Part shown: one piece after another, positions 9,005 to 46,150 of the stretch
Layout: each line of letters starts with the position of its first letter
How positions within the stretch are numbered: the first letter of the stretch is position 1
Assembly: GCA_003697105.1 (NCBI GenBank)
Contig: RFFQ01000134.1
Span: forward strand, 1-46,150
Length of the DNA: 46,150 nt
Reading direction: 5' to 3'
DNA from: Gemmatimonadota bacterium
GTDB lineage: Bacteria; 4572-55; J002
Translations under genes and position numbers: made by a program
Notes under the pieces: model-generated
What the model was told of the DNA's origin: nothing
Seen by the model: the letters and a program-made list of their open reading frames with translations, nothing else
Database searches by the model: none

Positions 9005-11941
9005 TTAAATCAAAACAGTTTTATCGTCTGCTTCCATTTTTGCCAATGCTTCTTCAGCGACTTCCCGAATTAAGGGGTCACTATCCCGTAACGCGGCTTG
9101 GAGTGCCGCGATTTTCTCCCGGCGTTGAAGTTCCCCGATAGCAAAGATGGCACATGCTTTTAGCCAATTATCATTCCCATGCAGCATCAGATCGAGAATT
9201 TCGTCGGTAGAGGGTTGCTTTAATTCCCATCGATTGGCGACGGTGCGTTGCAACTCCTGCGGTGACATTTGGTCGTAAAGCGGGAGCATTAACCGGATGA
9301 GGTCTTGTTCACCGACATTACCAAGGGCTTCCAGTGCATTCGCGCGGGTGCGGCTATCGACATCTCGTCGTTTGAGGAATCGTTCCACGAGCCGCAAAAC
9401 TTGACTGTTCCCCATGGATTCTAAAATCCGCATGACCAACGTTTTGATCTCTTCATTACGGTCTCGCAAGGCTTTGATCAACAGCACAACCGCGCGTTTT
9501 TCGGGTACGCGTTGTAAGGCGGAGATGTACATCACATTTTGGTACGCTTGACGGAGTTCCGTTTGGGCGAACAGCAAAAGAAATTCCTCATTCTCTTTGG
9601 AGCCAATTTTGTTTAGCGCCATAATCACGAATTCTTTAGTACGAACCGGAACGTTCACATCTTTCAGCACATCGACCAATGGGGCGACACTGACTTCACC
9701 CATTGCCGCTAAGGCGTCAATGGCGTTATTTCGGATTTTGGGCGAATCATTTAAGGCATGGATCAAATGGGGGATGGTCTTTGGATTTTGGATCTTCTTC
9801 AAGGCACTGACTGCCACTCGACGGACATCCCGGGACGAATCTTTCAGCATCATTACAAAATCATTTGTGAGTGTGGGGTCCTGGTTTTGGCAGAGCTTTT
9901 CCAAGGCAGAAACGGCTTCATAACGAACTTCCGCCGATACATCCTTGAGGAAGTGCTGTAATAACGGGATGTGCTCCGCATTTTCCGTCTCGCCAATGGC
10001 GTTTACTGCCAACGCGCGGACGGTTGGGTCTGTAGAGGAGTACATCTGTTGCAAGACCTGAAAGGCGTGATCCCGTACGGACTTAATTTTGGACTGCAAC
10101 AAGATTGAGATCACCCGGGACCGGACCACCGGATCCGGGTCTTCTAATAAGCCGAGGAGATAGGTTTCCACGGGTCCACCCAATTTTCCGATAGCAACTG
10201 CCGCTGCCGCCCGAACTTTTTCGGACGGGCTTTTTAAGTATGGCAATAATTGAGGGGAAAGTTCATTAAATCCAAAATTACCCAGCACCTCCAGAATTTT
10301 TTCCTCGATACGGTAACTTTTCTTTTCCATCACATTCAGCAAGGTATCGGCAATCTTGCGGTCTCCCACCTGTCCCAGTACTTCTACGGCGAAAATGCAC
10401 ATTTCTTCGTCTTCTTCATCAAGGGTTTGCACCAGCCGTTTCAGTTCTGCGCCACTAATTTTTGCCACCTCATCGGTATTTACGGAAGTCAAATCTACAT
10501 TTCGATCTTGTAATAACGTGATCAACGAATTCACATACTCCCGTTTTTGGCGCCAACTGAAAAAGCAATACATGATGGCAATGCCCAAACCAAAATAGGT
10601 GATACCTTGCCACGGGAGGGTATTTGCCAGCGCGATATTTTCATTACCGACGGAGAAAATACCGAAAATCAAAATGATAACTCCTGCCGTAATACCCCCA
10701 ATGCGCGAAATCATCTCGATGAATGCCCGCGAACGTCCCCGTAGATTTTGCGGCACGGCGTTGTAAATCATAGATGCCACCGTTGTTTCAATCGCCTTGC
10801 GCAGATTCACCTTGACGAACCGCCCCCAAGCACCTGCAAAGAACAAAGCGGGTACGATTGAAGCCACTTCCGGAGTGACATTATACCACTCAAACACAAA
10901 ACCAAACGGGGCAAATAACTCGGGTGGGGCAAATGGTGCCGCTAGAATTAACAGAAAACAGGACACGGTGACGACCGGATAGATCAGTTTCACCGTCCCC
11001 ACGCCGAACAGCGTCAACAAGCGCGGTACCACAAACAACGGGATGAGGATGGTGAGTAGCTCCGCAAAAGCGGCAAATTGACCCAAAAAACCGGTCAAAG
11101 AGTCCGAATCCCCAAAAGAGGCATCAAACACTTCATTATATTGGTAGCGCAAAATTTCCAGACCCAGTACCATTGCAAAGGTCGCTCCGGCAGTGACTCG
11201 CAACAACGGGGATTTGATGACAAACCGAAACCCCTGCTTGAAGCTTTCCATATTGGAAATTTGGTTGCGTTTACTGGTGCGGCGCTTTTTGGGTGTTTCA
11301 AACCCTTCCAGCGTGGGAAAGACCTGACTGACAAACATCACCAACATCATGTTGGCTATCGTTAAGGCAATACAGAGGAAGTTAAGGTTGCTGGTGCCGC
11401 CCACCGCCGTCACAATAAAAGGCAGACCGAATCCACCCAAAATCATCCCAAAACGTTGACCGGTGGAGACAATGGGAATCAACCGTTTAAACTGGAGGGT
11501 ATCAAAATAAGCAGAGGAATATTTTTCCAGATGTACATCTTGGATGTTGATCATCATCATGATGGCCGCATAGGCGCAGGCATACGCCCCTAAGCGGATT
11601 GCTGTAGAAATTGACGGGTCTAGCTCAGCCGAAATATAGACAAACAGGAGCGTACCAATCGTGCCGGTGAATACAATCAGAAACATACGATGGCTGCGGA
11701 TGGAGTCCGCCAGCGCCGTATAAGGCATCATCCCCACAATCTGAAAAAGTGCCTGAAACATCATCACGTAGGGTAAATTCTTTGCCCCAAATTCCTTCAA
11801 AAAGACGGATTGGATGCTACTGTTGACAAAAACAAACACTAACCCAATCAAAAAATTGATTAGGAAAAAACTAAATACGCGCCCTTCTTCTCCAGCGCGT
11901 ATTTTGAACCATCGATTGAGTAGGTCTGTAATGAGTTTCAT
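9005..11941 (-). CDS. nucleotide-translocase-like MFS membrane carrier with a C-terminal HEAT-repeat domain
   Basis: From the ATG at 11941 the protein has 978 residues; an in-frame GTG at 12007 would add 22, and neither start has a clear ribosome site. Residues 1 to about 490 form around a dozen membrane spans in the style of the major facilitator superfamily, most like the plastid/Chlamydia ATP:ADP translocase (NTT) branch. Residues of about 510-970 are soluble and made of a dozen or so HEAT-type helical repeats (for example EEKILEVLGNFGFNELSPQL, then SEKVRAAAAVAIGKLGG). HEAT repeats usually bind proteins, so the tail may couple transport to a cytoplasmic partner. Substrate is unknown; nucleotides are suggested only by the resemblance. 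It heads the transcript leading into asnS and has a strong promoter. Confidence 0.8.
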   Translation of the reverse strand: MKLITDLLNRWFKIRAGEEGRVFSFFLINFLIGLVFVFVNSSIQSVFLKEFGAKNLPYVMMFQALFQIVGMMPYTALADSIRSHRMFLIVFTGTIGTLLFVYISAELDPSISTAIRLGAYACAYAAIMMMINIQDVHLEKYSSAYFDTLQFKRLIPIVSTGQRFGMILGGFGLPFIVTAVGGTSNLNFLCIALTIANMMLVMFVSQVFPTLEGFETPKKRRTSKRNQISNMESFKQGFRFVIKSPLLRVTAGATFAMVLGLEILRYQYNEVFDASFGDSDSLTGFLGQFAAFAELLTILIPLFVVPRLLTLFGVGTVKLIYPVVTVSCFLLILAAPFAPPELFAPFGFVFEWYNVTPEVASIVPALFFAGAWGRFVKVNLRKAIETTVASMIYNAVPQNLRGRSRAFIEMISRIGGITAGVIILIFGIFSVGNENIALANTLPWQGITYFGLGIAIMYCFFSWRQKREYVNSLITLLQDRNVDLTSVNTDEVAKISGAELKRLVQTLDEEDEEMCIFAVEVLGQVGDRKIADTLLNVMEKKSYRIEEKILEVLGNFGFNELSPQLLPYLKSPSEKVRAAAAVAIGKLGGPVETYLLGLLEDPDPVVRSRVISILLQSKIKSVRDHAFQVLQQMYSSTDPTVRALAVNAIGETENAEHIPLLQHFLKDVSAEVRYEAVSALEKLCQNQDPTLTNDFVMMLKDSSRDVRRVAVSALKKIQNPKTIPHLIHALNDSPKIRNNAIDALAAMGEVSVAPLVDVLKDVNVPVRTKEFVIMALNKIGSKENEEFLLLFAQTELRQAYQNVMYISALQRVPEKRAVVLLIKALRDRNEEIKTLVMRILESMGNSQVLRLVERFLKRRDVDSRTRANALEALGNVGEQDLIRLMLPLYDQMSPQELQRTVANRWELKQPSTDEILDLMLHGNDNWLKACAIFAIGELQRREKIAALQAALRDSDPLIREVAEEALAKMEADDKTVLI

Positions 11942-12057
11942 CCCAAGAACGGCTTTATTAAGCTCCAAAATGGAATCCAGACATGCCGGCTTTTCAAAAT
12001 TTGACACGTCTGGAGTAGCGGCTTATGCTAAAAACTATTTAGGCAGAATTAGTTGCG

Positions 12058-37150: not shown

Positions 37151-37177
37151 TTGACACCTTGAGGAATGGGATATACT
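37151..37177 (+). promoter_or_regulatory. second candidate promoter upstream of the cyclophilin gene
   Basis: TTGACA (37151-37156) and TATACT (37172-37177) match the boxes well, but the 15-base spacer is short. It is 72 bases before the ATG. Confidence 0.35.
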
Positions 37178-37248
37178 CCACTCAGAACGATTACACCCAA
37201 TTGAACTTTCGTTATTCACCTCATTTTAATGGATTAAAGGAGACCGGT

Positions 37249-38256
37249 ATGTATCGTATTATCTGGTTACTCACTATCAGTCTATTTTTAACTTTTCAAA
37301 GCATTTGGGCAACAGAGATTACCCTGGCTCACATTGAGACGAATAAGGGTACGATTACCTGCCAACTCTATACGAAAGCCGCCCCGCTTCATAGCCAGAA
37401 TTTTATCAAATTGGCAAACGAGGGGTTTTACAAAGGGTTGACGTTCCACCGTGTGGTACAAGGTTTTGTGATTCAGGGAGGAGACCCAGAAGGCACCGGT
37501 ATGGGCGGTCCGGGTTATACCATCCCTGCGGAAATCATGTTACCCCACAAAAAGGGCGGTTTGGCGATGGCGCGTACGGGGGATGAAGTCAACCCAGATC
37601 GGGAATCCAGCGGCAGCCAATTTTACATCGATCTGAACGATTTACCCCAACTTGATGGCGGTTACACTGTTTTTGGCCAGACAGTTGACGGCATGGATGT
37701 AGTCGAAACGATCGCCCGCCGCGATAAAATCATCGATGTGACTATCGAAACTAAAGAAGTTCCAGACGATCAGTTGAAACCCATTGAATTGACTGTTGCC
37801 GTCATTGAGACCAATAAAGGTACGATTGAGTGCGAACTCGCGGAAGAGTACGCCCCCCAACATTGTCAAAATTTCATCAAATTAGCAAAGGAAGGCTTTT
37901 ATGACGGGTTGACCTTTCACCGGGTGGTACCGGATTTTGTGATTCAAGGGGGCGACCCAGAGGGTACGGGTCGGGGGGGTCCCGGTTACACCATTCCGGC
38001 GGAGATCGGCTTGATTCATCATCGGGGTGCTTTAGCGGCAGCGCGCACCAGCGATCAGGTCAATCCCGAACGACGCTCCAGCGGAAGCCAATATTACATT
38101 TGCCATAAACCATTGCCGCAATTGGATGGAAAATATTCGGTCTTCGGGTTTACCATCAAGGGGCTGGATGTGGTAGATAAAATTGCCGTTGGAGATGTAA
38201 TGAAATCGGTAAAAATTGAAAAGCGCATTGTGGATTATCAGTGGGTAACCGAATAA
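37249..38256 (+). CDS. exported peptidyl-prolyl isomerase with two cyclophilin domains
   Basis: The ATG at 37249 follows an AAGGAG site and starts a Sec signal (MYRIIWLLTISLFLTFQSIWA); the upstream in-frame Met codons lack a site. The 335-residue protein holds two cyclophilin domains in tandem (about 25-170 and 183-335). They share LTFHRVV, FVIQGGDPEGTG, GGPGYTIPAEI, SSGSQ and PQLDG blocks, so they are products of a duplication. FHR keeps the catalytic Arg, and the SSGSQFYI block matches the active-site surface of family members. Exported cyclophilins assist folding by isomerising X-Pro bonds, here probably in the periplasm. A third domain is encoded by the next gene, one base after the stop. 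Confidence 0.92.
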   Translation: MYRIIWLLTISLFLTFQSIWATEITLAHIETNKGTITCQLYTKAAPLHSQNFIKLANEGFYKGLTFHRVVQGFVIQGGDPEGTGMGGPGYTIPAEIMLPHKKGGLAMARTGDEVNPDRESSGSQFYIDLNDLPQLDGGYTVFGQTVDGMDVVETIARRDKIIDVTIETKEVPDDQLKPIELTVAVIETNKGTIECELAEEYAPQHCQNFIKLAKEGFYDGLTFHRVVPDFVIQGGDPEGTGRGGPGYTIPAEIGLIHHRGALAAARTSDQVNPERRSSGSQYYICHKPLPQLDGKYSVFGFTIKGLDVVDKIAVGDVMKSVKIEKRIVDYQWVTE

Positions 38257-38257
38257 G

Positions 38258-38776
38258 ATGAAACATTCTATCCTATTGATACTATTTAGCTGGATGTTGA
38301 TCAGTTGTGGCAAAAGCAATCAAATAACCATCGCCAAAATCGAGACCGAAAAAGGGACAATGACCGCGGTGCTCTACACGGAAAATGCCCCGAAGCACTG
38401 CAAAAACTTTATCAAATTGGCGGAAGAGGGGTTTTACAACGGCTTGACCTTTCATCGGGTCGAGCCGGGTTTTGTGATTCAAGGCGGTGATCCCGCTGGA
38501 GATGGAACGGGAGGTCCCGGCTATACCATTCCGCCGGAATTTGGGTTGCGGCACGAAAAAGGAGCATTGGCAATGGCTCGTAAGCCAGACTTTGTGAATC
38601 CGAAACAAGAATCCAGCGGAAGCCAGTTTTATATCTGTTTAGAACCCGCGCACCAACTGGACGGTCAATATTCTGTCTTCGGCAGAGTTTATGACGGCAT
38701 GGATGTGGCACAAAACATCCGGGTTGGCGATAAAATTCTATCAATTACTATTGAGAAACAAGATAAAGTCAAATAA
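38258..38776 (+). CDS. lipoprotein peptidyl-prolyl isomerase of the cyclophilin family
   Basis: A 172-residue single cyclophilin domain with a lipoprotein signal (MKHSILLILFSWMLISC; lipidated Cys at 17). It repeats the blocks of the preceding gene: LTFHRVEPGFVIQGGDPAGDGTGGPGYTIPPE, the SSGSQFYI segment and HQLDGQYSVFG. The catalytic Arg in FHR is present. It starts one base after the stop of the two-domain gene, so the pair is co-transcribed. Its anchor puts the domain at the membrane, whereas the two-domain protein appears soluble. The signalling cassette follows after 31 bases. Confidence 0.93.
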   Translation: MKHSILLILFSWMLISCGKSNQITIAKIETEKGTMTAVLYTENAPKHCKNFIKLAEEGFYNGLTFHRVEPGFVIQGGDPAGDGTGGPGYTIPPEFGLRHEKGALAMARKPDFVNPKQESSGSQFYICLEPAHQLDGQYSVFGRVYDGMDVAQNIRVGDKILSITIEKQDKVK

Positions 38777-38807: not shown

Positions 38808-39173
38808 GTGGCAAAGCGAGTACTCATAGCAGACGATGAACTTCATATTCAGGCATCGGTGAGTTACATCGTCAAACAAGCGGGTTACGAGGTTATCACA
38901 GCGGATAATGGGCAAGAAGCCGTTGACCGCGCCATTTCCGAATTACCAGATTTAGTTATTTCGGACATTATGATGCCCAAAAAAAATGGTTTTGAAGTCT
39001 GTGAAGCTTTGCGCCAACATCCCGCCTTGAAAGATACGTACATCATTTTGTTGACCGCCCGTGGTCAGGATTCCGATGTGGAGCAGGGACTAAAAGTCGG
39101 TGCCAATGAATATGTGACCAAACCCTTTAGCCCGATTAAATTACAACAAAAAATCAAAGAGTTGCTTGGTTAA
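38808..39173 (+). CDS. single-domain response regulator
   Basis: The 121 residues are a complete receiver domain and nothing else. The acidic pair is in IADDE (D9, D10), the phosphoacceptor is D53 in LVISDIMMPKKNGF, the Thr is in LLTARG near 83, and K105 is in VTKPFSP. There is no output domain, so it probably acts by protein contact or in a relay. A GTG start follows GAGAGG. It is the first gene of a cassette that continues with the GAF protein after 14 bases, the hybrid kinase and the cyclase. Confidence 0.95.
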   Translation: MAKRVLIADDELHIQASVSYIVKQAGYEVITADNGQEAVDRAISELPDLVISDIMMPKKNGFEVCEALRQHPALKDTYIILLTARGQDSDVEQGLKVGANEYVTKPFSPIKLQQKIKELLG

Positions 39174-39187
39174 GGAGGAATTCAAAC

Positions 39188-39811
39188 ATGCCCCCAACCA
39201 TTGAAGAGCTAGAAGCTAAAATTGCCCGGTTGGACCAAGAAAAAGAGAGCTTAGTGGCGGAGCTACTCCAAAATTATGAAGAGTTGAATTTGGTTTACGA
39301 AACGGCAGAACTGTTTAGTAATGTGTTCCGGTTAAATCATATTGCGGATATGCTGTTGGATAAAGCGACTGAGATTGCTCACGCCCAATTATGCTGGATG
39401 GTGGTACAACCGATCCAACCGCAAGATGGCATCCGGGTGATGGCAACTCGTCCAGAACACCAAAAAACATCCCCGTTGATCCCGTGGATCAATACTCACA
39501 TCGTCAACCCCGTGTTGAAAAGCGGGCGCAAACAGATCATCAACAACATTTCGGAACATTTTGATACCATTCCGGCAGAGTTCACCGCCGAGCAGGCATC
39601 GGTTGCGGTCATGGCAATTCCACTAAGTGTTGCCGGCAATGTTCATGGCGTGGCATGCCTCTGCCGTACCGGAGCCGACCAAATATTTACCGCGCGGGAA
39701 TCCAAAATGGTCTCGGTGCTCTGCTCCCAAGCGGCTCCTACGTTCAAAAATGCCGCCTTTTTAAATCAGATTAAACGCCGTCTGTCTTCGGATGATATCC
39801 CCACTTATTGA
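39188..39811 (+). CDS. GAF-domain signalling protein
   Basis: The 207 residues start with a coiled-coil segment ([42 protein letters not shown]), followed by a GAF domain from about 50 to 190. This layout is common in the N-terminal half of stress-response phosphatases and kinases, but no output domain is present, so it is probably a sensor or an adaptor. The ATG follows AAGGAGG with a good spacing. Its stop overlaps the possible TTG start of the hybrid kinase. No cofactor-binding Cys or His stands out. Confidence 0.85.
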
Positions 39812-39825
39812 CCCCTGAGAATCCG

Positions 39826-41691
39826 ATGGAACATCCATCTTACACCCAATTACAGCAGGAAAACGATTTGCTCCGGCAACAATTGGTAGATTTACAGCGC
39901 CGGGTTGATACCCGTACCCGCGATCTCGAAGCGGCGATCCGGCGGGTCAACCGGTTATTAACCGGCATTGTGGCGCTGGAGGAGATGGCATCGGCATTAT
40001 TACAGACCGGTCCCGCAACCACAGACCAACTGCCTGAGCTATTGCGGCAACTGGGGCTGTTACTGAATGCAAAGGGGTGTGTCCTGCAATTGGTGACCCA
40101 CAATGATGAATTGAAATTAGAAGCACTTGTTGGGTTTGGTGATGCGTTTCGCCATGCCTTTGAAACGCGCCCGATGAAACCGGGCTACGGACCGGATGGG
40201 TTGGTGGTGAAATACCGTCAAATTGTGGTGATCAGCAATGTCTTCACCGATGAACGCTATCTCTGGAAAGACCTCGCCGAAAAAGAAGGGTATAAAGCTG
40301 TCATTGGGGCGCCACTCCTTTCTCAGGGGAAATTGATCGGTATTGTCCAGTTATATTATGCCGGTGAACTCACTGTAGATGAGGATGAATACCGAATTTT
40401 GCGGATTGCCACAAATCAAGTGGGCAGTGCTATTCATAGCCACCAGTTATACCGCTATCTGGCAGAAGAAAAAGCCAAATTGGAACATACCTACCGGGAA
40501 TTAGTGGAGTTGGACGAACTCAAAACGGATTTTTTATCCACGGTGACCCATGAACTCCGTACCCCGCTAACCTCGATCAAAGCGTTTGTGGAAATTCTGA
40601 TGGCAAATCCGCAGGAAACCCCTGAAAATCGGGCAGATTTTCTACAAATCATTCGCCAAGAGACTGACCGCCTGACCGCTCTGGTCAATGACCTGCTTGA
40701 CCTTTCTAAGATCACCGCCGGAAAAATGACTTGGAACAAAGAGTTAGTTTCTATCCCCACATTGATCGAAGGGGCGGTGACCGTCATCCGCCCCCTATCG
40801 GATTCCAAAAATATTACACTGGATATTCAGATTTCCGATGACTTGCCCGGTACCTTTGCCGATAAAAATCGCTTGATTCAGGTGCTCACTAACCTGCTCT
40901 CTAATGCGATCAAATTTACGGAACCGGGCGGACGCATCCGGGTACGAGCTTACCAAACCGTTGATGTGCAAGGACTCGGCGACCGTGAAGACCACTATGA
41001 TAAGCGTATCGTTATCAGTGTGATCGATGATGGGATTGGCATCCCCCCCCCATACCGTACCGCCATCTTTGAGAAATTTAAGCAAGTGAAAGAACACATC
41101 AATGATCGGGTTCAGGGCACCGGTTTGGGGTTACCCATCTGCAAAGAAATTGTGGAGCATCACGGCGGGCACATTTGGGTTGAGAGCGAGGAAGGCAAAG
41201 GGAGTACATTCTCCTTCACCTTACCCATCCTTACCCAACTGGATGAAACCCCGACCGAACCGGATTCCGGGGTCTATGAAATGATTACCCCGGTGATCCA
41301 AAATCGACCGGTGGAAAATTGTACCGTGTTAGTGGCAGATGACGAACCCAACGTGCGACGGTTTATGGTGCATGTACTTCGACAACATGGCTATCACTGT
41401 TTGGAAGCCGAAAATGGCACGCACTGTTTAGAACTTGCCCGGCAGCATCAGCCCCACCTCATCGTGTTGGATGTGCTCATGCCGGGGCAAAATGGGTTTG
41501 ATGTCGCGGCAGAACTCAAACAGGATGACTCAACCGCCCATATCCCAATTTTAATCACATCGATTGTGCAAGATTATACCCGGGCATTTCATATCGGGGT
41601 GGAAGGTTATCTCACAAAACCGATTTCGTATCAGGATTTAATCCAGTGGGTGTATCGCCTCACCCAACTTCAGCAGGATTCTACACCATGA
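39826..41691 (+). CDS. GAF-containing hybrid histidine kinase with a C-terminal receiver
   Basis: From the ATG at 39826 the protein has 621 residues; an upstream TTG at 39808 overlaps the GAF gene stop. Residues 1-50 form a coiled coil and 60-205 a GAF domain. A coiled linker leads to HisKA with the phosphoacceptor H242 ([12 protein letters not shown]). The ATPase domain has N (LLSNAIKF, about 357-364), G1 (DDGIGIP, 401-407), F (FEKFKQV) and G2 ([11 protein letters not shown], 431-441) boxes. The C-terminal receiver (500-615) has D549 ([11 protein letters not shown]) and K598. There is no membrane span, so it senses a cytosolic signal. Its last four bases overlap the start of the cyclase gene (ATGA). 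Confidence 0.95.
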
Positions 41692-42752
41692 CAGACCCAC
41701 TCCCTCTCATTAATGTTGAATCGGCGGGACAGATTCTCTCGCCAGAAGAACAAGTACGGGTGTTTTCGACCCTGTATGACGTCGGGAATGCCATTTTGGG
41801 CACGTTGAATGTTGCGGAAGTGCTACAACTGGTGGTTGACCGGGTTTGTGAGTTTATGGGTTTGAAAAAAGGCTTCCTTATTCTACTGGATGAGGAGCGA
41901 CCGATTGTTGTCACACCGCTGAACTCCTCGTTAACCCCCGCCGAAATTGATAGCATTAAGAAGATGTTTGCCGAAGACCCGTTTATTGAGCCACTAACCG
42001 ACTCCACTATTATTCATCTGCGGGATTTCCCCCACACGGAACTGCAACACCAACTCCACTTGACTGCGGGGTTGATCTGTCCCCTCGTCGCCGCGGAGAA
42101 ACTACTTGGGGTGCTGGTCTTAGGAGACCGTACCTCTGGTGCGCCATACTCCCGGCAAGATATAGTGGTTGCCGGTTTGTTTTGCCAGCAAGCATCGATT
42201 GCGCTCCACAGTGCCAAACAGTACGAACACGTGGAAAAGCTGGCTCGTACGGATGGTCTGACCGGCGTGAGTAATCATCGCTATTTCAAACAGCGTTTTG
42301 CCGTGGAGATTGAGCGTGCCGACCGCTATGAACATGAACTTTCGCTGTTGGTGATTGATATTGACCGGTTCAAACAGATCAATGATACCTTTGGACATCT
42401 GACCGGCGACCTTTTGCTAAAGATGGTTGCCAATCTATTAAAGCGAGTCACCCGCAACACCGACCTTTTAGCCCGTTATGGGGGAGATGAGTTTATGGTG
42501 CTACTGGTGGAAACTCCCAAAGTCGGAGCAATGCGTGTCGTCGAACGCATCTTAGATGGCATCCACCAAATGGATTTTGAAGCCGTCGGGTTACAGAACC
42601 AAACGTTGACGCTCAGTATCGGAGTGGCAACCTTCCCCGAAGATGCGCAAAGTATGCTGGATTTAATCGAACATGCTGACCAAGCCCTTTATACCGCCAA
42701 AGCACAAGGGCGTGATGGCTTTGTCCTCTATGACCCAACCCACAATTCATAA
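41688..42752 (+). CDS. GAF-GGDEF diguanylate cyclase
   Basis: From the ATG at 41688 (overlapping the kinase stop as ATGA) the protein has 354 residues. A GAF domain (about 30-180) is followed by a GGDEF domain (about 185-345) with an intact active site RYGGDEF at 263-269. The RNTD at 256-259, five residues before GGDEF, is a canonical inhibitory I-site (RxxD), so product feedback is expected. It makes cyclic di-GMP from two GTP. As the last gene of the cassette it is the likely output of the kinase and receiver. No c-di-GMP-degrading EAL or HD-GYP domain is in the window. Confidence 0.95.
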
Positions 42753-42770
42753 AGACATTTACCGGCGGCT

Positions 42771-42805
42771 AACTGCCAACCGCTAACGGTTCACTGCCAA
42801 CCGCA
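42771..42805. repeat. degenerate 7-bp tandem repeat next to a start codon
   Basis: AACTGCC, AACCGCT, AACGGTT, CACTGCC, AACCGCA gives five consecutive 7-base units. ACTGCCAACCGC occurs twice, 21 bases apart. The last unit ends on the A of the ATG of the TPR-dynamin gene, so the array occupies the place where its ribosome site should be; no Shine-Dalgarno sequence is visible. Confidence 0.7.
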
Positions 42806-45630
42806 TGAATATTTTTCAAAAAATCGGTGAAATCATTGATGATGTGCTTCTTCCTGATGAAGCCTTACAAGCGTTGCGCCGCGGAGAAAAAGCACTGGTT
42901 GCCCAGCAATTGGAACAGGCAATCCAACATTTCTACCAAGCCATTTCCATCAAGTCCGACCATCCCGAACCGTACTACAAACTTGGTTTGGCGTATTATT
43001 ATGCCGGGCAGTATGATGCGGCAAAGAAAGCCGCCCGGCAAGCCCTTATCTACCGTGAGGAATTCCCGCAGGTTTACAATTTAATGGGGTTAATCGCGCT
43101 AAAGGAAAATGACCCCAAGTTGGCACTACGTCTGTTCAAAAAGACGATGCAGTTAAACCCCGACTTGCCGGAAACCCATGAGTATATGGGACGAGCATAC
43201 GCCGCACGAAACCAACATCCGCAGGCATTAACCGCCTTCCGTAAAGCGTTGCGTTTGCAACCGGATGCGCTTTCTACGCAGTTGGGGCTCGCCGAAAGTG
43301 CCTTAGAAGTAGGAGACCACCCCACTGCCCGGCAGACACTTCAGACCATCCTGCAAAAAAAGCCCCAGCATAGCCGGGCGCTTTTTTTATTGGGCCGGTT
43401 AGAACTGGCGGAAGGCAACGCTGCCGAAGCGGTGCTGTACTTGCAAGGCGCTGTCGCCACTAGCCAACGCCAGCATACGCTGGAAGTGCAACAGATGCTT
43501 GCCCGGGCGTATCTTTACCATGATAAGCTGGATTCTGCACAGGAACTGCTGGAAGGGTTGATTACCCGCTATCCCCAATCAGTTGAAACCCATTTGTTGT
43601 TGGCAGACGTTTATTTGAGGGGCAAACATCCGGATCAGGTGCTGGACCAACTTCAACCGTTTTTAGATGCCGATCTGCCGGAATCTCAGCGCCAAAATAT
43701 CCATCTGCTTTGGGGTCGAGCCGCCTTACAACTCAATAAACCGGAGCAAGCAAAAGCCGCTTTTGAACACGTTACCACCGCAAATCCGGATCAAATAGAA
43801 GGGTGGGAATTGCTGGCACAAGCGGAAATGCGGTTGCACCAGTTTTCTGCCGCTATCCAGACTCTGCAAAAAGCATTATCACTGGCACCGGATAATCCGC
43901 ACCTGTATCTGGCACTAGCGGAATGCCAACTGAGCCTAAAACAGTACCCCGCCGCCATTGAATCCGCGAAAATTGTCCTCAAATTTGATCCGGAAAATCT
44001 CAACGCCAAAAAAATTATCGAAATATCACACAGTCACCGCACCCATGACCAAACAGATTCCCTGGCGGAACATGCCAGTAATGCTCCCGCTGAATTCGTA
44101 TTCATTTTAGATAAGCTCTATCGAACCTTGGATTTTTGTACCCATGTGGCGGATTTCCACCCCTTCCAAACCGATCTTTTTGAGCTGATTTCGACCGTGC
44201 GCCACCTGCGGGAATCGCTTGACCTACCGTTGCTGGTCACGATTATGGGTGAGTTTAATACTGGTAAGTCCACCTTTATCAACAGCTTTATCGGTGAGAA
44301 CGTCGCCCCCATGGGTATTCGCCCCACCACAGCGACAATTAACTACCTGAAATTTGGAACCATGAAAAAATTGCGGATCGTCTGGCAGAGTGGGGAAGTG
44401 GAGGAAGCCGAAATCACCCGTTTAGCGGAATATGTAGATGAACGGCAAGCAGATACAGAAAATATTCGCCAAATTCAGTGGGTGGAAATTCTGTATCCCC
44501 TAGAAATATTAAAAGAGGTTAATATTGTGGATACGCCGGGCTTGAATGTCTCCTTGACCGAACATGAAGCCCTCACCAAAAATTTTGTGGAACGCGCCGA
44601 TGCGGTGATCTGGCTCTTTGCGGTTGATCAGGCTGGAAAACAGACCGAAAAAGAGGCACTCGCGTTCCTAAAATCACATGCGAAAAAGACGGTGGGGGTT
44701 GTCAACAAGATCGATGTGGTTTCGCCAGAGGAGACACAGTGGGTGATCGATGAGGTACAACAAGAACTTGCAGAGTATGTGGCGGGCGTCGTTGGGATTT
44801 CCGCTAAACAGGCACTCCGGGGGCAGATCGAGGGTAAGCCGGATCAGGTGGCACAAAGCGGTTTTCACCAGTTAGATGACTTTTTGAATGAGACCATTTT
44901 TCAGCATTCCCGGCAGATCAAATATCAGAGTATTATCCATCAATTGACCGGTGTTTTGAGGCAAATGGATTCCATCGAACAGCGGTTGAAATCGGCGGCA
45001 GCAGAGCGGGTGACCCAGTTAGAGCAAGCCCAAAACCGGTTGAATGACTTACAACAAACATTTCAACGGCGCTGGATACCGGATCAGATGGAACGGTTCA
45101 AAAAGGGGCTAAATAAAATGTATCTGGAATTGGCGCAATATCTTGTGGATAGCACGGTTTATCGCGGCTTTTTTGAGGGAGAGGTGTTGAGCCCTGAAGA
45201 CCAACAGTATCTGCGAACACAAATTGAAAGCGGTTTTCAACAGGTGATTCAACAGTGCGAAACCGCTTTACGGGCAGAATGTACCGCCGCCGGTATCTCT
45301 GAAGATTCGGTACAAACCGTATATCGAGAGTTGGAAGCCTATTTTGCCGGAGTATTGGATGCTGGAACCTTGGCAGAGGCACTCAAACCCACGCAAGATT
45401 TTAACGAAGCCATTGAACAGTTCCGCGCATTTCATCCGCCGGCGGCAAAAATCCGCTTGCAACAGGGGCTTAACCGGTGGCAAGAGCGCTTTTTTGTTGC
45501 CCAAAAGCATGAATACTCCGACCGGCTCCGGGCACATCACGCCCAACAACTCGAAATTGAATGGACGGTCTTCCAGCCGTTAGCAGAATTGCGGCAATCG
45601 TTGCAATCCCTTTCCGACCAATTGAATTAG
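42805..45630 (+). CDS. TPR array fused to a dynamin-like GTPase
   Basis: The 941-residue protein joins two parts. Residues of about 20-405 are a string of TPRs (for example EPYYKLGLAYYYAGQYDAAKKAARQALIY), a protein-binding scaffold. Residues of about 475-690 are a dynamin-superfamily GTPase: P-loop GEFNTGKS (482-489), G2 Thr in PTTATI (507-512), DTPG (576-579) and NKID (634-637). From 700 to the end it is helical and coiled-coil rich, like the stalk of bacterial dynamins. There is no membrane span or signal peptide. Bacterial dynamins remodel membranes. No ribosome site precedes the ATG, and a repeat array fills that space. It follows the cyclase after 52 bases. Confidence 0.88.
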   Translation: MNIFQKIGEIIDDVLLPDEALQALRRGEKALVAQQLEQAIQHFYQAISIKSDHPEPYYKLGLAYYYAGQYDAAKKAARQALIYREEFPQVYNLMGLIALKENDPKLALRLFKKTMQLNPDLPETHEYMGRAYAARNQHPQALTAFRKALRLQPDALSTQLGLAESALEVGDHPTARQTLQTILQKKPQHSRALFLLGRLELAEGNAAEAVLYLQGAVATSQRQHTLEVQQMLARAYLYHDKLDSAQELLEGLITRYPQSVETHLLLADVYLRGKHPDQVLDQLQPFLDADLPESQRQNIHLLWGRAALQLNKPEQAKAAFEHVTTANPDQIEGWELLAQAEMRLHQFSAAIQTLQKALSLAPDNPHLYLALAECQLSLKQYPAAIESAKIVLKFDPENLNAKKIIEISHSHRTHDQTDSLAEHASNAPAEFVFILDKLYRTLDFCTHVADFHPFQTDLFELISTVRHLRESLDLPLLVTIMGEFNTGKSTFINSFIGENVAPMGIRPTTATINYLKFGTMKKLRIVWQSGEVEEAEITRLAEYVDERQADTENIRQIQWVEILYPLEILKEVNIVDTPGLNVSLTEHEALTKNFVERADAVIWLFAVDQAGKQTEKEALAFLKSHAKKTVGVVNKIDVVSPEETQWVIDEVQQELAEYVAGVVGISAKQALRGQIEGKPDQVAQSGFHQLDDFLNETIFQHSRQIKYQSIIHQLTGVLRQMDSIEQRLKSAAAERVTQLEQAQNRLNDLQQTFQRRWIPDQMERFKKGLNKMYLELAQYLVDSTVYRGFFEGEVLSPEDQQYLRTQIESGFQQVIQQCETALRAECTAAGISEDSVQTVYRELEAYFAGVLDAGTLAEALKPTQDFNEAIEQFRAFHPPAAKIRLQQGLNRWQERFFVAQKHEYSDRLRAHHAQQLEIEWTVFQPLAELRQSLQSLSDQLN

Positions 45631-46057: not shown

Positions 46058-46150
46058 ATGAAACTGAAAGATTCCAAGATTTTACTGACCGGCGGTAGCT
46101 TAGGGCTGGGCAAAGATGCGGCAAAAGTGTTGGTAGAGAGCGGAGCACAG
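46058..46150 (+). CDS. short-chain dehydrogenase/reductase, N-terminal part (runs off the window)
   Basis: The first 31 residues start MKLKDSKILLTGGSLGLGK, where TGGSLGLGK is the glycine-rich NAD(P)-binding motif (TGxxxGxG) of the SDR family. The rest is beyond the right edge, so neither length nor substrate can be judged. The ATG at 46058 has only a weak AGAAAGAG-type site. It is the next gene after the VOC-fold protein, 20 bases on. Confidence 0.75.
   Translation, partial: MKLKDSKILLTGGSLGLGKDAAKVLVESGAQ

Follow-up and report, generated by a model that had tools for sequence, protein, structure and literature searches.

A TPR-dynamin-like protein encoded behind a diguanylate cyclase is probably the soluble half of a separated bacterial dynamin pair

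Five + strand genes are present and intact in the window (the whole stretch of DNA analysed here, 46,150 nucleotides), and their ORFs and domains are as first listed (ORF reading, Pfam). The gene list of the original prediction, namely a lone receiver, a GAF protein, a GAF hybrid kinase, a GAF-GGDEF cyclase with an I-site and a TPR-dynamin, joined by short gaps or overlaps, is upheld by the ORFs, the Pfam matches and the junctions. The features are as follows.

38808..39173, + strand: lone CheY-like receiver (REC), 121 aa (Pfam Response_reg 1.1e-29; by reading, it has the Asp, Lys and Thr positions)
39188..39811, + strand: stand-alone GAF protein, 207 aa (Pfam GAF_2 1e-10)
39808..41691, + strand: GAF-HisKA-HATPase-REC hybrid histidine kinase, 627 aa, TTG start (Pfam)
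41688..42752, + strand: GAF-GGDEF diguanylate cyclase, 354 aa (Pfam GGDEF 1.4e-49, GAF_2 1.3e-12)
42453..42464, + strand: I-site RNTD (RxxD), read from sequence
42480..42494, + strand: active-site motif GGDEF, read from sequence
42753..42804, + strand: gap between cyclase and dynamin, 52 bp, with the 12-bp direct repeat ACTGCCAACCGC at 42772 and 42793
42805..45630, + strand: TPR-dynamin-like protein, 941 aa (Pfam TPR and Dynamin_N; family alignment; AlphaFold2 model)
42832..42861, + strand: conserved amphipathic N-terminal motif IIDDVLLPDE, top hydrophobic moment of the protein
42862..44028, + strand: TPR superhelix, about residues 20-408 (Pfam; predicted helix pairs; Foldseek to the OGT TPR, 1w3b)
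44152..44895, + strand: dynamin GTPase domain, about residues 450-697 (Dynamin_N; Foldseek to BDLP 2j69, IniA 6j72 and Cj-DLP2 5owv_C)
44899..45624, + strand: helical neck/trunk, residues 699-940, without a hydrophobic paddle (model helices; hydropathy)

The first four genes are closely packed. The receiver and GAF genes are 14 bp apart, with an AAGGAGG Shine-Dalgarno sequence; the GAF and kinase genes share a 4-bp TTGA overlap (the kinase's next ATG is at 39828), and the kinase overlaps the cyclase by the 4 bp ATGA, the cyclase starting at the ATG at 41688. Between the cyclase and dynamin genes are 52 bp in which no ribosome-binding site is obvious, which argues against translational coupling of the dynamin to the cyclase. 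No terminator-like site was found on the + strand between the two, and promoter-like and terminator-like matches in the window are no more frequent than expected by chance. The fold of the 52-bp gap is not significant (z-score -1.65), and its repeat was rejected as a genome-wide element, the pattern having three matches in the genome. A glyoxalase-type gene on the same strand begins 14 bp after the dynamin, and upstream there are two same-strand cyclophilin genes (37159-38776), the second of which stops 31 bp before the receiver. The same-strand run thus extends from at least 37159, beyond 45630, as far as the end of the contig at 46150. Since cyclophilins precede and a glyoxalase follows within this run, the limits of the ‘cassette’ are arbitrary, a choice made in the original prediction.

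The window cyclase is predicted to be active, as its GGDEF motif is accompanied by RNTD five residues upstream, a canonical I-site. In the TPR-dynamin, TPR matches reach an E-value of 6e-37 and Dynamin_N matches residues 478-636 (2.6e-26; Pfam). The GTPase motifs are intact (G1 GEFNTGKS, G2 RPTTAT, G3 DTPG, G4 NKID), and in an AlphaFold2 model (mean pLDDT 86) a TPR superhelix leads into a GTPase domain, which is followed by a long helical tail. The G1-G4 motifs, with a helical neck/trunk behind the GTPase (model; Foldseek matches to 5owv_C, 2j69 and 6j72), place the protein in the dynamin superfamily among bacterial dynamin-like proteins. Its strongest amphipathic stretch is formed by the first 16 residues, NIFQKIGEIIDDVLLPDE, and this stretch is kept in myxobacterial relatives (SIFDKIGARVGDFLDEVLLPED; GFLDRFERFLDDVVLLPDD), where the counterparts of IIDDVLLPDE are RFIDDVLLLPDD and DFLDEVLLPED. 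The shared motif supports the annotated start codon, and the conservation suggests that the N-terminal stretch has a function, which may be to dock the protein to a membrane or a partner.

How would such a protein act on membranes? We found no lipid-binding paddle or transmembrane tip in the TPR-dynamin: the highest 19-residue hydropathy in its tail is 0.76, versus 2.13 in a second dynamin encoded elsewhere in the genome. It may bind membranes more weakly or amphipathically. The original prediction had a cytosolic signal control c-di-GMP, with a membrane-remodelling enzyme as partner or target. Read as a pathway, the signal would pass through the GAF proteins, the kinase and the cyclase, and c-di-GMP would directly control a membrane-remodelling TPR-dynamin. 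The gene order and the intact cyclase with its I-site are as such a pathway would have them. Against it, the TPR-dynamin has neither a paddle nor a transmembrane segment of its own, and no c-di-GMP-binding motif was recognised in its sequence. As a membrane-remodelling enzyme acting alone the protein finds no support, the membrane-type dynamin being a separate gene on contig C43.

Single-protein scans of genome and viral contigs returned no relatives, and a family alignment was needed to find them. In a 386-genome sample across the domain, the TPR-dynamin architecture occurs in just one other genome; the long dynamin ORFs of G048, G128, G053 and G263 proved on examination not to be TPR fusions, and plasmid records gave distant dynamins only. 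Within the phylum of that other genome, 190 of 379 genomes gave a match to the family profile at E 1e-30, this count taking in dynamins without TPRs as well. Nearly all of the named family matches belong to the Myxococcota, among them Nannocystis, Labilithrix and Sandaracinaceae, and full-length relatives resemble the window protein in N-terminal motif, TPRs, GTPase and short tail. A TPR region preceding a dynamin, described originally as uncommon, is therefore rare outside the Myxococcota but common inside them.

The GAF/kinase cassette, proposed as a unit, is absent beside the TPR-dynamin in every relative. G001, the sole class-mate compared, lacks both a TPR-dynamin and any full-length relative of the kinase, its best kinase match being confined to the kinase core plus a portion of the GAF region. 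For the cassette, this is the kind of outcome that the original prediction itself named as refuting it. With the cassette conserved in no relative, direct control of the TPR-dynamin by c-di-GMP at the end of this cascade strikes us as distinctly improbable.

The second dynamin of the window genome (G000:C43:5958-7694, 578 aa) leads to a different reading. In several clades, the TPR-dynamin gene is immediately preceded by that of another dynamin, ~600 residues long and bearing a hydrophobic segment, and a second dynamin match occurs within 36 of 123 distinct TPR-dynamin loci. The C43 protein aligns with these linked partners over about 560 aa at 28-30% identity (E 1e-75 to 1e-86), nearly their full length and a closer match than to any other dynamin in the comparison, and it has the hydrophobic segment that they carry (hydropathy 2.13, and 1.9-2.1 in the partners). 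Linked or unlinked, a membrane-type dynamin of about 600 aa is present in each of the 24 tested genomes that have a TPR-dynamin, among them the window's. Among tested genomes that lack a TPR-dynamin, none of four (G001, G042, G400, G411) has a partner-type dynamin, and two more (G005, G099) gave only weaker matches, to other dynamins. As a rule, bacterial dynamin-like proteins occur in pairs and require heterotypic G-dimers, GTP being hydrolysed by the heterotypic dimer (PMC6104087). Given this co-occurrence and the published pairing, the window TPR-dynamin probably supplies the soluble half of a heterotypic dynamin pair whose two genes, side by side in the linked-pair clades and on different contigs here, would since have become separated.

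Does the cyclase belong with this pair? Among 95 distinct TPR-dynamin loci with both flanks present, a GGDEF gene lies within 1 kb at 11, versus two more in 837 kb of further flank. These 11, together with two loci on short contigs, belong to one Myxococcota clade of 15 (SH-like support 100), in which all 13 members with readable flanks have a REC-GGDEF cyclase right next to the TPR-dynamin. Pfam confirmed the REC-GGDEF and TPR-Dynamin architectures (the cyclase in the three tested), and all 13 cyclases have an I-site, with GGDEF, GGEEF or GGDEL as the active-site motif. Most often the cyclase and dynamin genes are divergent, in the order ABC ATPase, cyclase, TPR-dynamin, rpoN, hpf. The far side of the locus differs in L173 and L183, and in L183 the cyclase is downstream of the dynamin on the same strand rather than divergent, yet the cyclase still adjoins, so the adjacency outlived rearrangement. 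This neighbourhood probably reflects more than chance. The 13 loci are nevertheless not independent, as they descend from one ancestral event within one clade, in a conserved neighbourhood (ABC ATPase, rpoN, hpf). The originally proposed association of dynamin and cyclase is retained in part: the adjacency recurs in a second lineage, and its direction gains no support.

The place of the window's dynamin gene could also be incidental. The TPR-dynamin may be a soluble half with its own envelope role, brought behind the sensory genes by rearrangement alone, and any co-transcription with them would have no regulatory meaning. Signalling genes abound in this 4.18-Mb genome (152 kinase or receiver matches and about ten GGDEF genes), so that kinase genes are likely neighbours by chance, and the unrelated cyclophilin and glyoxalase genes lie in the same run. 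In most TPR-dynamin clades, moreover, there is no neighbouring cyclase, and the neighbours are instead a partner dynamin, LptA/LptB-like genes or a lipoprotein. The core function of the dynamin is therefore independent of a cyclase, and c-di-GMP could be a control added to it, a point in favour of the original prediction. On the other hand, we estimate the chance of a GGDEF gene among two immediate neighbours at roughly 0.5% (about ten of about 3,900 genes), and the cyclase adjacency recurs in a separate clade. We regard the incidental placement as a serious possibility, one that weighs nearly as much as a functional module.

The window sequence sits on a long branch (1.65 changes per column), which leaves its exact place in the family tree unsure. 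With partner dynamins as the outgroup and a mixture model, it falls inside the linked-pair clade (SH-aLRT 94). FastTree with a distant outgroup had placed it outside all clades. An AU test does not reject grouping with the cyclase-linked clade (p 0.265). If the window protein does belong to the linked-pair rather than the cyclase-linked clade, its cyclase linkage would be independent of the myxobacterial one. The cyclases differ in type, GAF-GGDEF in the window and REC-GGDEF in the myxobacterial clade. The window's own cyclase adjacency is a single case, which, like this difference, counts against coupling.

On balance we favour, at somewhat less than an even chance, a module in which the TPR-dynamin, as the soluble member of a dynamin pair, acts with its cyclase, dynamin assembly being coupled to c-di-GMP. 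The membrane-inserted half would be encoded on C43, and the TPR half would have come to stand at the end of a sensory operon, behind a diguanylate cyclase linked to a phosphorelay, with which it most likely works. The N-terminal amphipathic helix and the TPR array would dock the GTPase to partners at the membrane face, where GTP-dependent assembly with the membrane dynamin would be coupled to local c-di-GMP. Two versions are conceivable: the GTPase scaffold could set cyclase activity, as RdcA does for DgcE, or the local c-di-GMP pool could set dynamin assembly.

The one established c-di-GMP link of bacterial dynamins is RdcA-DgcE in E. coli. With its constant companion, a membrane dynamin, and a neighbouring cyclase in two lineages, the TPR-dynamin offers a concrete system, including in myxobacteria. 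A broader and more speculative proposal, which we consider rather unlikely as a whole, is that a two-dynamin membrane machine conserved in Myxococcota also operates in this little-known phylum, with its soluble TPR half wired to c-di-GMP and mutual control of assembly and c-di-GMP synthesis. If true, the cyclase linkage arose at least twice, with unrelated cyclase types, and represents a new c-di-GMP/GTPase module.

Among the closest counterparts are the Myxococcota TPR-dynamins, which are annotated by domain only (for example L171, L148, L141; L181-L185 in Nannocystis). They share the architecture, N-terminal motif and short tail, with identity to the GTPase part of the window protein ranging from 33% (L171) to 41% (L141); their neighbours vary by clade, and a cyclase, of REC-GGDEF type, adjoins in one clade only. 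BDLP1 of Nostoc punctiforme (PDB 2j69) has the same dynamin GTPase and helical neck/trunk fold, but possesses the lipid-binding paddle that the window protein lacks. Campylobacter jejuni likewise encodes two dynamin-like proteins, Cj-DLP1 and Cj-DLP2 (PMC6104087; PDB 5owv). The model of the window protein matches the GTPase, neck and trunk fold of Cj-DLP2 (5owv_C), and in both the soluble member is preceded by a short N-terminal helix, which in Cj-DLP2 binds the partner. In contrast to the Campylobacter pair, the window member bears a TPR region of about 380 residues and lacks a lipid-binding tip, and in this genome its gene is not linked to that of the partner.

For the teaming of a soluble dynamin-like GTPase with a diguanylate cyclase, the likeness proposed here, the comparison is with E. 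coli RdcA, which acts jointly with RdcB to bind the cyclase DgcE and activate it, in a manner that depends on GTP (PMC6510439). RdcA has no TPR, and its alignment with the window protein is confined to the GTP-binding motifs, so we rejected orthology and treat it as a functional parallel. DgcE is a MASE1-PAS-GGDEF-EAL protein, whereas the window cyclase is GAF-GGDEF, and rdcA is accompanied by rdcB and not adjacent to dgcE, whereas the window dynamin adjoins its cyclase. With this precedent, a functional link between cyclase and dynamin is plausible, whichever way it may run. The published case runs from GTPase to cyclase, opposite to c-di-GMP acting on the dynamin (PMC6510439); dynamin-type GTPases can thus act upstream of a cyclase, the reverse of the arrow originally drawn for this locus.

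The genome that holds the window encodes a second dynamin, of the membrane type, on another contig (locus L027, G000:C43:5958-7694), and this protein is a full-length relative of the partner dynamins that adjoin TPR-dynamins in other clades.

The genes flanking TPR-dynamins vary among relatives. At three loci of a Myxococcota clade (L170, L173 and L183), the adjoining cyclase carries GGDEL in place of GGDEF and retains the I-site; it may be a sensor of c-di-GMP rather than an enzyme. At five other loci (L146, L147, L148, L150 and L151), the TPR-dynamin gene is followed on its 3' side by a gene for a lipoprotein-like protein of ~220 aa, frequently with a 4-bp overlap. The three of these proteins that were tested had no match in Pfam, and the protein is possibly a new partner. 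In the Labilithrix-type clade (L097, L132, L134, L135 and L137), genes for an LptA-like protein and an LptB-like ABC ATPase come after the TPR-dynamin, with rpoN also following in several loci, neighbours that hint at an envelope role.

Other features of the window are:

9005-12007, - strand, ORF of 1000 residues, reading as a membrane transporter with HEAT-like repeats after it
37159-38776, + strand, a tandem pair of cyclophilin genes, of which the first encodes two PPIase domains
42772-42804, two copies of the 12-bp direct repeat ACTGCCAACCGC in the gap between the cyclase and dynamin genes

The dynamin start codon directly abuts the end of the second repeat copy. The cyclophilin pair lies on the same strand as the lone receiver gene and ends 31 bp upstream of it. 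Several Kofleriaceae-type loci (L144, L158, L161, L163 and L152) have a lone receiver gene a few kb upstream of a linked dynamin pair, on the opposite strand, and the window likewise has a lone receiver upstream of its dynamin.
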